DNA of 64,000 nt from Bacteroidia bacterium (GTDB lineage: Bacteria > Bacteroidota > Bacteroidia > Chitinophagales > Chitinophagaceae). Shown here in pieces: positions 58,852-64,000 of the stretch; position 1 is the first letter of the stretch, and each line of letters opens with the position of its first letter. The stretch covers positions 2,036,806-2,100,805 of the forward strand of contig JAUICZ010000001.1 of the NCBI GenBank assembly GCA_030429205.1, read 5' to 3'. The translations under genes were made by a program, and so were the position numbers. The notes beneath the pieces are model-generated. The model was not told where the DNA came from, ran no database searches, and saw only the letters and a list, made by a program, of their open reading frames with translations.

Positions 58852-59136
58852 ATGAACAATTACTCTGTTTACATCATGACCAATCCTGACAATAATGTAT
58901 TATATATAGGTGTTACCAATGATTTGGAACGTAGAGTTTGGGAACATAAAAATGGTGAAGGGAGTGAGTTTACTAATAAATACAAGTGTTCAAAACTAGT
59001 CTACTATGAAGATTATAATAACATCAAAACAGCTATTAACAGAGAAAAGAATCTAAAGGACTGGAAACGTAAATGGAAGTATGACCTAATTATAGAAAAC
59101 AATCCACAAATGAATGATTTGTCCTTAGAATGGTAA
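58852..59136 (+). CDS. GIY-YIG single-domain nuclease family protein
   Basis: 94 residues, a stand-alone GIY-YIG domain of the UPF0213/YhbQ type. The two tyrosine strands are NYSVYIMTNPDNNVLYIGVT and the Arg/His helix is NDLERRVWEHKNGEGSEFTN; the metal-binding Glu is in NREKNLKDWKRKW. Such small proteins are multicopy in Bacteroidota genomes and often lie beside palindromic repeats as here. Function unknown; a DNA structure-specific nuclease is inferred. Confidence 0.88.
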   Translation: MNNYSVYIMTNPDNNVLYIGVTNDLERRVWEHKNGEGSEFTNKYKCSKLVYYEDYNNIKTAINREKNLKDWKRKWKYDLIIENNPQMNDLSLEW

Positions 59137-59729: not shown

Positions 59730-60800
59730 ATGACAGAAGAAGAAAAACGACAACTCGAAGAACTCTACAACCGCAATCCCAAAGCCCGTATACTGGCACA
59801 GAAAATGCGTGAAGAACACATACGCCTGTGGCATCCGCCGCAAAACGGCAAGATGGGCATCTTTACCGTAAAAAGCGGTAACGAGTGGTTGAAAGACGCA
59901 TCGCAACTGACCATACCCAAAATGCTGTTTGATGAGTTTTGGTACGAAGATGAGGTGTGCATACTCTTTGCCGACACCAACACGGGCAAAAGCATACTGG
60001 CAGTACAAATAGCCGAAAGCATCAGCAGTGGTGTACCCATACCGGGTTTTAGATTGCAGGCAAAGGCACAGCCGGTAGTGTACTTTGATTTTGAGCTGAG
60101 CGAGAAACAGTTTGAGCGCCGCTATAGTGCCGATTTTAAAGATCACTATGTTTTTCATGAGAACTTTTACCGTGCAGAGATTGATGTGGATGAAGAAACG
60201 CCCGACAAGTACCCCACTTTTGAAGATTACCTGCAGGCGTCTATAGAGTCGATGTTGAAGGATACCGAAACCCGAATACTGGTGATAGACAACATCACCT
60301 ACCTGAAGCACGATAACGAGCGCGCTAAAGATGCACTACCGCTGATGAAACAACTGAAGCGCATTAAAAAACAATACGACGCCAGCATACTGGTACTGGC
60401 ACACACCCCCAAGCGAGACATGACCAAACCCATGACCCGCAACGACCTGCAGGGCAGTAAAATGCTCATCAGCATATGCGACAGTAGCTTTTGCATTGGC
60501 GAGAGTACACAGGCACAGGGCCTGCGCTACCTGAAGCAGATAAAGATGCGCGCCAGCGAGGGTATATACCACACCGATAATGTAGCCCTGTGCACCATAG
60601 AAAAGCCACACAACTTTCTGCAATTCTCTTTTGTGAGCTTTGGTACAGAACGGGAGCATTTGAAGGAACGTAGTGAAATGGACAAATCTGAAAGAGACGA
60701 AATGATTTGGCAGTTGAAAGAGGAGGGGCTAAGCCAGCAAAAGATAGCAGACAAATTAGGTATTGGTGCAGGCACAGTAAACCGGGTACTGAACTCTTAG
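59730..60800 (+). CDS. RecA-fold AAA ATPase with C-terminal helix-turn-helix (RepA-like)
   Basis: A 356-residue ATPase. An N-terminal segment (RNPKARILAQKMREEHIRLW) precedes a RecA-like core: Walker A ILFADTNTGKSILAVQIAES (first Gly replaced by Ala), VVYFDFELSEKQFERR, Walker B TRILVIDNITYL and ILVLAHTPKRD. The C-terminus carries a helix-turn-helix (EEGLSQQKIADKLGIGAGTV). This family (AAA_25-type) contains replication helicases of plasmids and integrated elements, and it lies near a Toprim gene. The codon usage is more GC-rich than in the flanking AT-rich orphan gene. Confidence 0.82.
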   Translation: MTEEEKRQLEELYNRNPKARILAQKMREEHIRLWHPPQNGKMGIFTVKSGNEWLKDASQLTIPKMLFDEFWYEDEVCILFADTNTGKSILAVQIAESISSGVPIPGFRLQAKAQPVVYFDFELSEKQFERRYSADFKDHYVFHENFYRAEIDVDEETPDKYPTFEDYLQASIESMLKDTETRILVIDNITYLKHDNERAKDALPLMKQLKRIKKQYDASILVLAHTPKRDMTKPMTRNDLQGSKMLISICDSSFCIGESTQAQGLRYLKQIKMRASEGIYHTDNVALCTIEKPHNFLQFSFVSFGTEREHLKERSEMDKSERDEMIWQLKEEGLSQQKIADKLGIGAGTVNRVLNS

Positions 60801-60860
60801 CATTCCAACCGTTCCACTCATTCCATACACTATAACTGGAATGGTGGAATGAATGGAATA
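60801..60860. repeat. GGAAT-rich palindromic repeat, left copy
   Basis: Starting one base after the ATPase stop codon are three TTCCA words (CATTCCAACCGTTCCACTCA ...) and then, after a short A/T spacer, three GGAAT words (GGAATGGTGGAATGAATGGA) forming an imperfect inverted repeat. The 16-base stretch GTGGAATGAATGGAAT (60844-60859) is repeated exactly at 61875-61890 on the other side of the orphan gene. Confidence 0.8.
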
Positions 60861-60882
60861 GAAAGTAATATCTTTAAGCATC

Positions 60883-61839
60883 ATGAAAAATTACATAACA
60901 ACGTTCGACATATTTGAATATTTAGCACCAATAAACATCAAAAAGGAAATTTTGTTTTTTGATAAGGTTTTGTTGTTGAATGGTAATTTAGAAATAGCTG
61001 AAAGTCTTATAAAATCTGCAACAAAGGAGGGTGAGGAAAACTTCTATAACAACTTAAAAACAATTGATTTTTTAATTGATAGAGGTCTGTGTGAAAAATT
61101 TTCGTTTGAAGATGGTGAATCTATTGTCAAAAACTCTGAAAAAGAAAAAGATCCTTTATCAGTTGAGTCGACAAAGAGCATAAACAAAATAACAGAATTG
61201 AAGATTATGTTGAGAAAAGGAACAGAGATTCTTGGTGAAAAGGAGAATACAATGAGTAATATACAGATGTTATATAATTTGTTTAATCAAGGTGATTATG
61301 TTGATGCGAGATTTTGGGCACTACTCCTAGCATCAGTTAAAGATGAGATATATTATCCTATAATTAAGAAAGATATAATAAGTAACCATGTAGTGGAAAA
61401 GAAACAAGAAGTAACGAACTTTTTATTCAATAAAATACCAGTACTTGACCCTAATTCTTCTTGGGAAGAGATATTAGAATATAAATCAGATAAAGATGCA
61501 CAAAGAAAGTACTATGCTTTGATTAATTGGGTAAATGAAATGTCCATTAGTAATATGAGTACTGCTGAAATAAAAGATAAGTTCGAGCATTTGTACAGAG
61601 AGTATGAGCATCAATTAAACCTGCACAAGAAAAAGAAAAGTACCACTACGTTTCAGGTAGTTGTAAATGCTCCGTTAGAGGCAATTGAAAATTTAGTTAA
61701 GCTTCGTTTCAGCAAGATACTTAGTCCCTTTTTTGATGTAACAAAAGCGGAAATGGATCTACTTGAAGCAGAAACTAAAATAACAGGAAGAGAGCTTGGG
61801 TATATTTTTGATGTAAATGAAAAATTAGGAAAGAAATAA
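60883..61839 (+). CDS. Orphan protein of unknown function between two repeats
   Basis: A 318-residue soluble protein, mostly helical and rich in Lys, Glu and Asn; the DNA is clearly more AT-rich than the ATPase gene before it. No signal peptide, membrane helix or known catalytic motif is visible. Some order can be seen: an N-terminal region (FDIFEYLAPINIKKEILFFD, then KVLLLNGNLEIAESLIKSA), a helical middle, and a C-terminal helix with FDVTKAEMDLLEAETKITGR. The gene is framed by related palindromes on both sides. Possible roles such as defence or element maintenance would be guesses. Confidence 0.7.
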   Translation: MKNYITTFDIFEYLAPINIKKEILFFDKVLLLNGNLEIAESLIKSATKEGEENFYNNLKTIDFLIDRGLCEKFSFEDGESIVKNSEKEKDPLSVESTKSINKITELKIMLRKGTEILGEKENTMSNIQMLYNLFNQGDYVDARFWALLLASVKDEIYYPIIKKDIISNHVVEKKQEVTNFLFNKIPVLDPNSSWEEILEYKSDKDAQRKYYALINWVNEMSISNMSTAEIKDKFEHLYREYEHQLNLHKKKKSTTTFQVVVNAPLEAIENLVKLRFSKILSPFFDVTKAEMDLLEAETKITGRELGYIFDVNEKLGKK

Positions 61840-61840
61840 G

Positions 61841-61892
61841 CCGTTCCAACATTCCATTCCAATAGTATGGAATAGTGGAATGAATGGAATGA
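61841..61892. repeat. GGAAT-rich palindromic repeat, right copy
   Basis: CCGTTCCAACATTCCATTCC, then AATAGTAT, then GGAATAGTGGAATGAATGGA form an imperfect inverted repeat that begins one base after the orphan gene's stop codon. The right arm differs from the left copy's right arm by one base over 22, and the 16-base core GTGGAATGAATGGAAT is identical. Confidence 0.8.
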
Positions 61893-61899
61893 CCCACTC

Positions 61900-62029
61900 C
61901 CGTCATTACGAGGAGGTAGTTACCGGTTAACTAGCGACGTGGTAATCTCGCAATAACAAGGTCTGTCCCTCGCGTTACGAGATTGCTTCATGCATAACGC
62001 TGTAAGCGTTACTCCTTCGCAATGACGAG
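61900..62029. repeat. MITE-like repeat with CGTCATT ends
   Basis: About 130 bases with inverted ends: CGTCATTACGAGGAG on the left and CTCCTTCGCAATGACG on the right. Inside are GGTAATCTCGCAATAACAAG and CGAGATTGCTTCATGC, so it has further internal pairing. Elements with these ends are dispersed in many bacterial genomes. No reading frame is kept inside. It lies in the 258-base gap before the 62098 gene. Confidence 0.75.
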
Positions 62030-62097
62030 AGTCGGGTACTCACAGAAATGACCAAGTACTAACAAAGAGCAAAAAGTAAACACATAAATTTATCAAC

Positions 62098-63033: not shown

Positions 63034-64000
63034 ATGAATTACAGATACACACTAGAAAAGTATGCAGGTCCTTCGACAAGGTATGCCTGTCCGCAGTGCG
63101 GCATAAAGCGCACCTTCACCCGTTATATAGATACCGAGACCAACCAACACCTGTCTGCCGAGGTAGGGCGTTGCAACCGAGAGCAGAAATGTGGGTATCA
63201 CTACAAGCCCAAACAGTATTTTGCGGATCACCCGGAACAAGTAACACACCCCCAACCCCTCTCAAGAGGGGAGGGCAAGAAACACTTCCCCTCCGAGGAG
63301 GGGTGCAGGGATGGGGCATCTACCATCCACGATACCAAAGCTCAGGAGGTCACTCGCGGCAAGCCACTCGAGACGACGAACATTAATAAACAATCCTTCT
63401 CCACAATGCCACTTAGCACTATGCAAGAGAGTTTCACCCAGTACGATTGTAACCACTTTGTACACTACCTGCGTAACAGGCTGGGGGATGAGCGGGCCTT
63501 TCATCTGGCGAAGCAATACCATGTAGGCACCAGTAATTATTGGGATTGCAGTACCGTTTTCTGGCAGGTAGATGCACAACAACGCATCCGTACGGGCAAG
63601 GTGATGCTGTACAGGCCAGACAATGGCAGGCGCATCAAAACACCCCGCAACTACATCACATGGATGCACAGTGTGCTTAAATGTCAGGACTATCACCTGC
63701 AGCAATGCCTCTTCGGCGAGCACCTGCTCACCGGCAGATGTATGAACATAGGGTTGGTAGAAAGCGAGAAAACAGCCATACTGGCATCGGCACATTTCCC
63801 CGAATATACCTGGCTGGCAACTGGTGGACTTAGTAATATAGGTGCAACGCTGCTCCAAGTGTTAGACGGGCATAACGTCACCCTTTTTCCCGATGCGGGT
63901 GCGGCACATAAATGGGCAGTGCTACAAGGGCAGCTGCGCAAGTGCAGATTGTCTTACCTGCTGGAGCAACACGACGACCTCATCAACAATGGCGACGACC
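63034..64000 (+). CDS. Zinc-finger/Toprim protein (DUF6371-like), cut off by the window end
   Basis: An open reading frame runs from the ATG at 63034 to the end of the window with no stop (322 codons). The N-terminus has a zinc-finger pattern: C19-P-Q-C22 and C47..C53 with H56. After a linker follows a domain (about 115-322) with Toprim features: NIGLVESEKTAIL (Glu243) and VTLFPDAGA (Asp287). This layout fits the DUF6371/CHC2-Toprim type found with RepA-like ATPases in Bacteroidota. Residues about 72-97 (THPQPLSRGEGKKHFPSEEG) are encoded by an inserted-looking palindromic DNA repeat. The C-terminus is outside the window. Confidence 0.8.
   Translation, partial: MNYRYTLEKYAGPSTRYACPQCGIKRTFTRYIDTETNQHLSAEVGRCNREQKCGYHYKPKQYFADHPEQVTHPQPLSRGEGKKHFPSEEGCRDGASTIHDTKAQEVTRGKPLETTNINKQSFSTMPLSTMQESFTQYDCNHFVHYLRNRLGDERAFHLAKQYHVGTSNYWDCSTVFWQVDAQQRIRTGKVMLYRPDNGRRIKTPRNYITWMHSVLKCQDYHLQQCLFGEHLLTGRCMNIGLVESEKTAILASAHFPEYTWLATGGLSNIGATLLQVLDGHNVTLFPDAGAAHKWAVLQGQLRKCRLSYLLEQHDDLINNGDD
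63248..63318. repeat. Palindromic repeat inside the Toprim reading frame
   Basis: Two perfect hairpins: CCCCTCTCAAGAGGGG (63256-63271) and CCCCTCCGAGGAGGGG (63288-63303), flanked by CACCCCCAA and GATGGGG. This C/G-run repeat type is dispersed in Bacteroidota genomes, normally between genes. Here it stays in frame between the zinc finger and the Toprim domain. Confidence 0.8.

Follow-up and report, generated by a model that had tools for sequence, protein, structure and literature searches.

Why does a single AT-rich gene stand between two nearly identical palindromes directly behind an ATPase gene? This question is raised by the 3' part of the window, i.e., the complete stretch of 64,000 nucleotides that was analysed here, and the relevant features are compiled in Table 1. 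The stop codon of the ATPase gene ends at position 60800 and the left palindromic array begins with the next base, with its first unit at 60802, while the right array (61843 to 61890/92) starts 3 nt past the stop codon of the enclosed gene, hereafter designated as cargo. The first-pass annotation had located both palindromes one base behind the respective stop codons; its other figures hold, but the distance of the right array has to be corrected to three nucleotides. The near identity of the two palindromes that it described is borne out by their right arms, which match at 22 of 23 positions (TGGAATGGTGGAATGAATGGAAT vs TGGAATAGTGGAATGAATGGAAT), and by a shared 16-mer that is present in exactly two copies in the 64 kb, compared with 0.11 expected (up to two mismatches). 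Elsewhere in the genome we found one chance match of this 16-mer with zero to one mismatch, which is located inside a coding region, and a GGAATG site 40 kb away was rejected as a further array site for the same location within coding sequence. Arrays of the window unit are confined to the window locus, the arrays of all module units of this genome occur only at module loci, and in shuffled sequence our array finder retrieved 0 arrays per 20 kb.

Table 1. Features of the investigated locus (positions within the window).
Feature	Position	Strand	Remarks
AAA_25 (RepA/DnaB-type RecA-fold) ATPase with C-terminal HTH	59730..60800	+	Pfam; homologues found
C-terminal HTH of the ATPase	60663..60797	+	recognition helix IGAGTVNRV; part covarying with the array unit
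Left array	60801..60860	no strand	three ATTCCA-type units, then three inverted; spacings 9, 9, 17, 8, 9
Cargo gene (957 nt), 318-aa protein	60883..61839	+	function unknown; 30% GC
Right array	61843..61892	no strand	unit as in left array; right arm 22/23 identical
Dispersed repeat starting CGTCATTACGAGG	61900..62032	no strand	adjoins right array; copy at C12:197187
DUF6371 + zinc-ribbon primase-like protein	63034..64000	+	gene cut by window end; true stop 64026

The window ATPase is characterized by Pfam matches to AAA_25 (4.9e-23, above cutoff), DnaB_C (7e-6, a weak similarity) and HTH_23 (3.5e-4). The arrays share a common design of about six half-sites of 7 nt on a 9-nt grid, three in forward and then three in inverted orientation, with half-sites 8–9 nt apart and a centre spacing of mostly 9, 18 or 27 nt. 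An array, counted as such if it comprises at least four units with both orientations represented, is located directly 3' of the homologous ATPase gene at 60 of 80 GTDB loci vs 38 of 1510 control windows (2.5%). The unit varies by locus (TGTTACA, TGTTCAC, TCGTACC, TGTCCCA, TGTTTCA, TGTTCCA, CATTCCA and others), and its similarity across 58 loci is correlated with that of the HTH (Spearman rho 0.48, p 0.001); the equivalent value for the ATPase body is rho 0.03. Within the cargo loci described below, Lys at position 3 of the recognition helix is associated with C at position 4 of the unit, and Arg vs Lys at helix position 8 with unit positions 6–7 (p 2e-4 to 5e-4 in per-position tests that, like the helix frame, were chosen post hoc). 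If the analysis is restricted to the 19 cargo loci, the correlation of the unit with the full 42-aa HTH is weak (rho 0.16, p 0.06), and for the recognition helix it amounts to rho 0.23 (p 0.018) in a test that was framed post hoc. One example of the correspondence is the CATTCCA unit, which is common to the window (IGAGTVNRV) and L045 (IGAATVNRY). Another example is the TGTTTCA unit of L046 and L050, both of which have the helix ISAATVNR though they are apart on the tree. Because of this covariation, the HTH of the ATPase very likely reads the neighbouring array, a match that had been missed in the first-pass annotation together with the usual mirror relation of the arrays and the downstream primase gene, whereas its observation of a bracketed gene was correct. 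In ATPases with an ISEGTVR-type helix (L053, L059, L062, L083, L102, L107, L123, L124) the ATPase gene is immediately followed by a different gene, and the array is not located right behind the ATPase stop.

Our comparative analysis revealed 20 loci at which two arrays bracket a cargo. They comprise 19 ATPase loci (the window; C8 and C4:980k of the window genome; G003; L045–L052; L054; L068; L169–L172; L183) and a single locus of a congener (G002), where the ATPase has decayed to its HTH end beside a TATTCG array pair and an intact Abi-alpha cargo. The two-array form occurs in the genus of the window, in its sister genera and, farther away within the family, at L183. The second array is situated 1–2.2 kb downstream of the first, with a 1–2 kb AT-rich cargo in between, and starts 0–8 nt past the cargo stop codon at nearly all loci, the exceptions being L051 (~90 nt) and L172 (76 nt). 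The orientation of ATPase-linked cargo is always that of the ATPase gene, and its GC content is 32% vs 44% in the flanks (p 1.5e-5). Thirteen of the 18 array pairs scored are inverted, as are the terminal repeats of a TIR transposon (10 of them clearly), two are ties and three are direct; the window pair itself is ambiguous with scores of 59 direct and 55 inverted. In the clear mirror pairs, the inverted copying includes the loop and the spacers. On a quick tree with long branches, the two-array state requires 4 changes vs 17.4 in shuffles, which does not amount to proof of a single origin.

The type of cargo changes at almost every locus. The spectrum includes pentapeptide-TIR, Fic, SIR2, an OLD-type ATPase, bSEFIR, AIPR/AbiU, DUF2971 (twice), TIR/NDT-like proteins (twice), Abi-alpha, several membrane proteins, unknowns and a fatty-acid desaturase (L183). 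PADLOC matches (E<=1e-5) were obtained for 10 of the 17 ATPase-linked cargo loci scanned vs 1 of 10 neighbour genes, and measured against this small control the locus family represents a slot enriched in defence genes. The cassette of C8 (L040 7457–8851) contains three genes, one of them for an XRE-type HTH regulator, thus indicating that the cargo can be a small operon. Four contigs with this system of Bacteroidota are filed under Azovibrio or Acidobacteria MAGs (L046, L047, L113, L114) and were probably mis-binned.

Pairwise comparisons of related loci allowed us to retrace the exchange of cargo. L046 and L047 exhibit 95% DNA identity from ~200 nt upstream of the ATPase gene to position −108 from its stop and are unrelated thereafter; L171 and L172, which reside in one genome, are 91% identical up to −125 from the ATPase stop and then likewise unrelated. 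The identity of L047 and L048 (91%) extends through the left array and is followed by different cargo. L049 and L068 are 82% identical through the left array, harbor OLD and AIPR cargo, respectively, and their homology resumes at the right array. Finally, L045 and L047 share a downstream flank (93%) and differ in HTH, arrays and cargo. The ATPase core is hence conserved among related loci, with the break at the HTH or at the first array, and these alignments document that either the HTH, the arrays and the cargo change jointly on a constant core or the cargo alone changes between constant arrays. The earlier proposal of a cassette between repeats is substantiated by 20 loci of the same architecture with different cargo, and by related loci that swap the cargo and keep the ATPase core.

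The window cargo conforms to this pattern in its composition, which had correctly been described as unlike that of the ATPase gene (30.0% GC vs 47.3%; 39.6% for the window). A single-sequence search retrieved no homologue in 58 relatives, viral contigs, phages and plasmids, and a pattern-based scan of 84,980 GTDB genomes retrieved none either. The same slot of L050 contains a protein with 43% identity, there behind TGTTTCA arrays, and the homology of the two genes continues past the stop codon up to the array edge. A two-sequence profile of both proteins detected distant homologues (~30%) in other Bacteroidota, which lack arrays and at least one of which is located near an integrase-like gene, and the designation as an orphan gene can therefore not be maintained. 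The window cargo has no PADLOC match and no Pfam match above cutoff. Weak Pfam matches (TSP_NTD, Myb) were rejected as they fall below the cutoff, and the AF2 model was discarded (pLDDT 42). We conclude that the window slot is occupied by an accessory gene without an assigned function, for which the slot would suggest a role in defence. The presumed accessory or defence setting is supported for the slot, where about half of the cargo genes match defence families; the window gene itself would be a candidate defence gene.

Where does the ATPase come from? The DUF6371 gene of the window has Pfam matches (DUF6371 1.8e-57, Zn_ribbon_16 1.4e-29). The AF2 model of a homologue from the same genome (pLDDT 80) has T7 gp4 and DnaG as top Foldseek matches (TM ~0.4–0.5), and the family model also matches the Twinkle primase; DUF6371 with its zinc ribbon thus models like a DnaG/T7 gp4-type primase. 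In two DUF6371 genes (window 63034–64000; L041 6000–6980), the segment that joins the zinc ribbon to the primase domain resembles dispersed repeats that have been inserted in frame and translated. The pair of ATPase and DUF6371 is present in circular elements of the Tn4555 type, which also possess genes for integrase, excisionase and mobilization, and DUF6371 is listed within Tn4555 (PMC13183296). We also found the pair in islands that are located downstream of mnmE-like genes and contain integrase-like ORFs; their gene names were read from ORF starts, and here a single array lies between the ATPase and DUF6371 genes. This occurrence in integrative elements suggests a helicase-primase replication module, of which the intervening array may represent the iteron-type site.

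A search for the TGTCCC array in four genomes documented that bracketed genes are not restricted to the vicinity of an ATPase. Three array-bracketed genes without a nearby ATPase, namely, L201 in genome IBVUCB1 as well as L198 and L200 in LGM1, were found in addition to one solo array. These trans cassettes represent one unit only, and both genomes harbor a resident ATPase of that unit; the window genome has no trans cassettes for its own units, and PADLOC matches are absent from the trans cargo. In L201, a GldM-domain gene is located between a mobA-like gene and recA. Homologous GldM-domain cargo is present in the layered cassettes of IBVUCB1 (L201 2440–3927) and G348 (L226 4649–6139), directly beside recA in the former and ~2.5 kb from recA in the latter. 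In LGM1, it is the ATPase locus L052 that adjoins recA in place of the GldM-domain cassette.

Synteny of the window site is lost in the congeners, and the comparison of an empty with a filled site worked for L200 in a genus related to that of the window. Here LGM1 contains a 2.0 kb insert, the flanks of which are 57 and 39 bp apart in two sister genomes. At its borders, the empty site has array layers and dispersed repeats instead of a single clean pair of arrays, and no clear target-site duplication was observed with flanks that are only ~80% and ~73% identical. The left layers of L200 read TGCCCA, GCTCAC, TGTTCA, TGTTCG, TGTAAC and TGTCCC from the outside to the cargo, and the right layers TGTCCC, TGTAAC, (TGTCCC), TGTTCG, TGTTCA and GCCCAA from the cargo outward. 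Five unit types are present on both sides, and each of them matches better in inverted than in direct orientation, narrowly so for TGTAAC. L201 and the homologous G348 cassette are layered as well.

We propose that the locus serves as a slot for exchangeable cassettes, each with one accessory gene or rarely a small operon between two array copies of 50–75 bp and ~6 half-sites, which are usually inverted relative to each other. The array is the predicted binding site of the HTH on the neighbouring ATPase, and both would change together. ATPase and DUF6371 primase were probably inherited from integrative mobilizable elements, in whose replication module the single array between the two is plausibly an iteron-type origin; in the lineage of the window, this array would have been doubled around a cargo. 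The ATPase, together with the primase where present, would bind the two arrays and recognise them as cassette ends, act on the cassette as helicase and primase, and promote the copying, transposition or other mobilisation of the enclosed genes, which are mostly anti-phage effectors, within a genome and from one genome to another. The whole reading, in which a sequence-specific helicase-type ATPase recognises the ends of mobile cassettes, is, judged from sequence comparisons, evenly poised between right and wrong. Tentatively, it may represent a new class of cassette mobility that does without a conventional transposase: a helicase-primase pair with sequence specificity would copy or move accessory and defence genes flanked by mirror arrays, and nested layers would reflect their stepwise re-capture by systems with new specificities. 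The main gaps of the mobility reading are that no recombinase, be it a transposase or an integrase, was recognised near the cassettes, and that no clear target duplication was found.

The main rival to mobility is a purely regulatory role, which we regard as possible but rather unlikely. Bound to both arrays, the ATPase would form a switchable roadblock or loop, with the effector gene kept silent or insulated until its release on infection, and the cargo would be swapped by homologous recombination. The fixed position of the arrays at nearly all loci, directly past the ATPase stop on the left and 0–8 nt past the cargo stop on the right, and the constant orientation of the cargo fit regulation well, and the invariable co-orientation with the ATPase suits it better than free movement. 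The cargo is moreover often a toxic-type effector in need of control, and the lack of a recognised recombinase near the cassettes is in line with this explanation. It does not account for the near-perfect mirror copies including loops and spacers, the array-bracketed genes far from any ATPase, the empty site of L200 and the mirrored nested layers of several units; mirrored whole arrays, trans cassettes and nesting are unexpected from regulation alone. At G002, the Abi-alpha cargo is intact beside the decayed ATPase, thus indicating that constant repression is not essential there. Mobility and regulation could both be true, and part of the cargo swapping could go back to recombination between the conserved ATPase cores.

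It is improbable that the arrays are just origin iterons of decayed mobilizable elements, with the cargo as a passive leftover and a bracket without present function. The single-array modules in integrative elements and Tn4555-like circles, the decay at G002 and the failure to find DUF6371 at over half of the cargo loci could be understood as traces of such relics, but the ATPase genes are intact at 19 loci with an HTH matched to the array, two arrays are present at every cargo locus, the cargo has been exchanged repeatedly, and the position of the right array is adjusted to the stop codon of the cargo even where the genes are unrelated. A far-fetched explanation is that the palindromes are bidirectional hairpins for RNA termination which follow each gene by chance. 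The arrays do fold well as RNA (z ~−5 to −8) and follow stop codons, but this explanation was rejected since no terminator-like site with a T-run was found, and their units on the 9-nt grid covary with the HTH and occur in the window genome only at module loci.

The system of mobile cassettes proposed here shares traits with several known ones. The mobilizable integrative elements of Bacteroides such as Tn4555 harbor the same ATPase family beside a DUF6371 gene (PMC13183296 for the Tn4555 listing), but they possess integrase, excisionase and Mob genes, whereas neither an integrase nor a Mob gene is in view at the window and the other cargo loci, and the window family brackets its cargo with two arrays. 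Inspection of the ORFs at 52–64 kb of the window and to ~11 kb beyond it revealed no recognisable integrase or mobilization gene. Integrons resemble the family in their single-gene cassettes with a palindromic site (attC) directly past each stop codon, their exchangeable cargo including defence genes and an anchoring platform gene outside the cassette. In contrast, no gene for an IntI-type integrase was recognised among the ORFs of the window locus, each cassette has two mirror sites, and these sites are arrays on a 9-nt grid whose unit varies with the HTH of a helicase-type ATPase. Non-autonomous TIR transposons likewise have cargo between inverted ends, dispersed trans copies and empty sites in sister genomes; in the window family, each end is a multi-site array that is palindromic in itself and matches a helicase-type ATPase, layers of different specificity are nested, and no transposase was recognised near the cassettes. 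Iteron replicons, i.e., iteron plasmids and those with an RSF1010-type RepA helicase, have a RepA-like ATPase, a primase and clustered short repeats in common with our loci, whereas the inverted arrays of the latter are chromosomal, surround a cargo and are, to judge from covariation, read by an HTH on the helicase-type protein itself. Phage-defence hotspots and islands are equally variable slots with TIR, SIR2, SEFIR, OLD, AIPR, Abi-alpha and similar genes, but in the window family it is an ATPase with its cognate arrays that defines the slot, and part of the cassettes are also found away from it.

Our literature search, which mostly covered sources other than subscription papers and preprints, retrieved no description of paired helicase-matched arrays around exchangeable genes; the parts are known, and the arrangement is to our knowledge new. 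If the proposed explanation is true, bacteria would have a route besides integrons, transposons and prophages for collecting and swapping anti-phage genes, the recognition helix of the HTH and the repeat unit would constitute a readable protein-DNA code, and the nested layers would be a record of past specificities. The paired arrays could moreover be used as a search tool for new defence genes between them.

Two additional features recur in the vicinity of the cassettes. Repeats of the CGTCATTACGAGG type, like the one downstream of the right array in the window, adjoin many other cassettes (C4b, L045, L046, L048, L170) and may have a role in cassette movement. A small GIY-YIG gene is located near the module at window position 58852–59136, and related GIY-YIG genes are present near L051, L052, L171 and L172.
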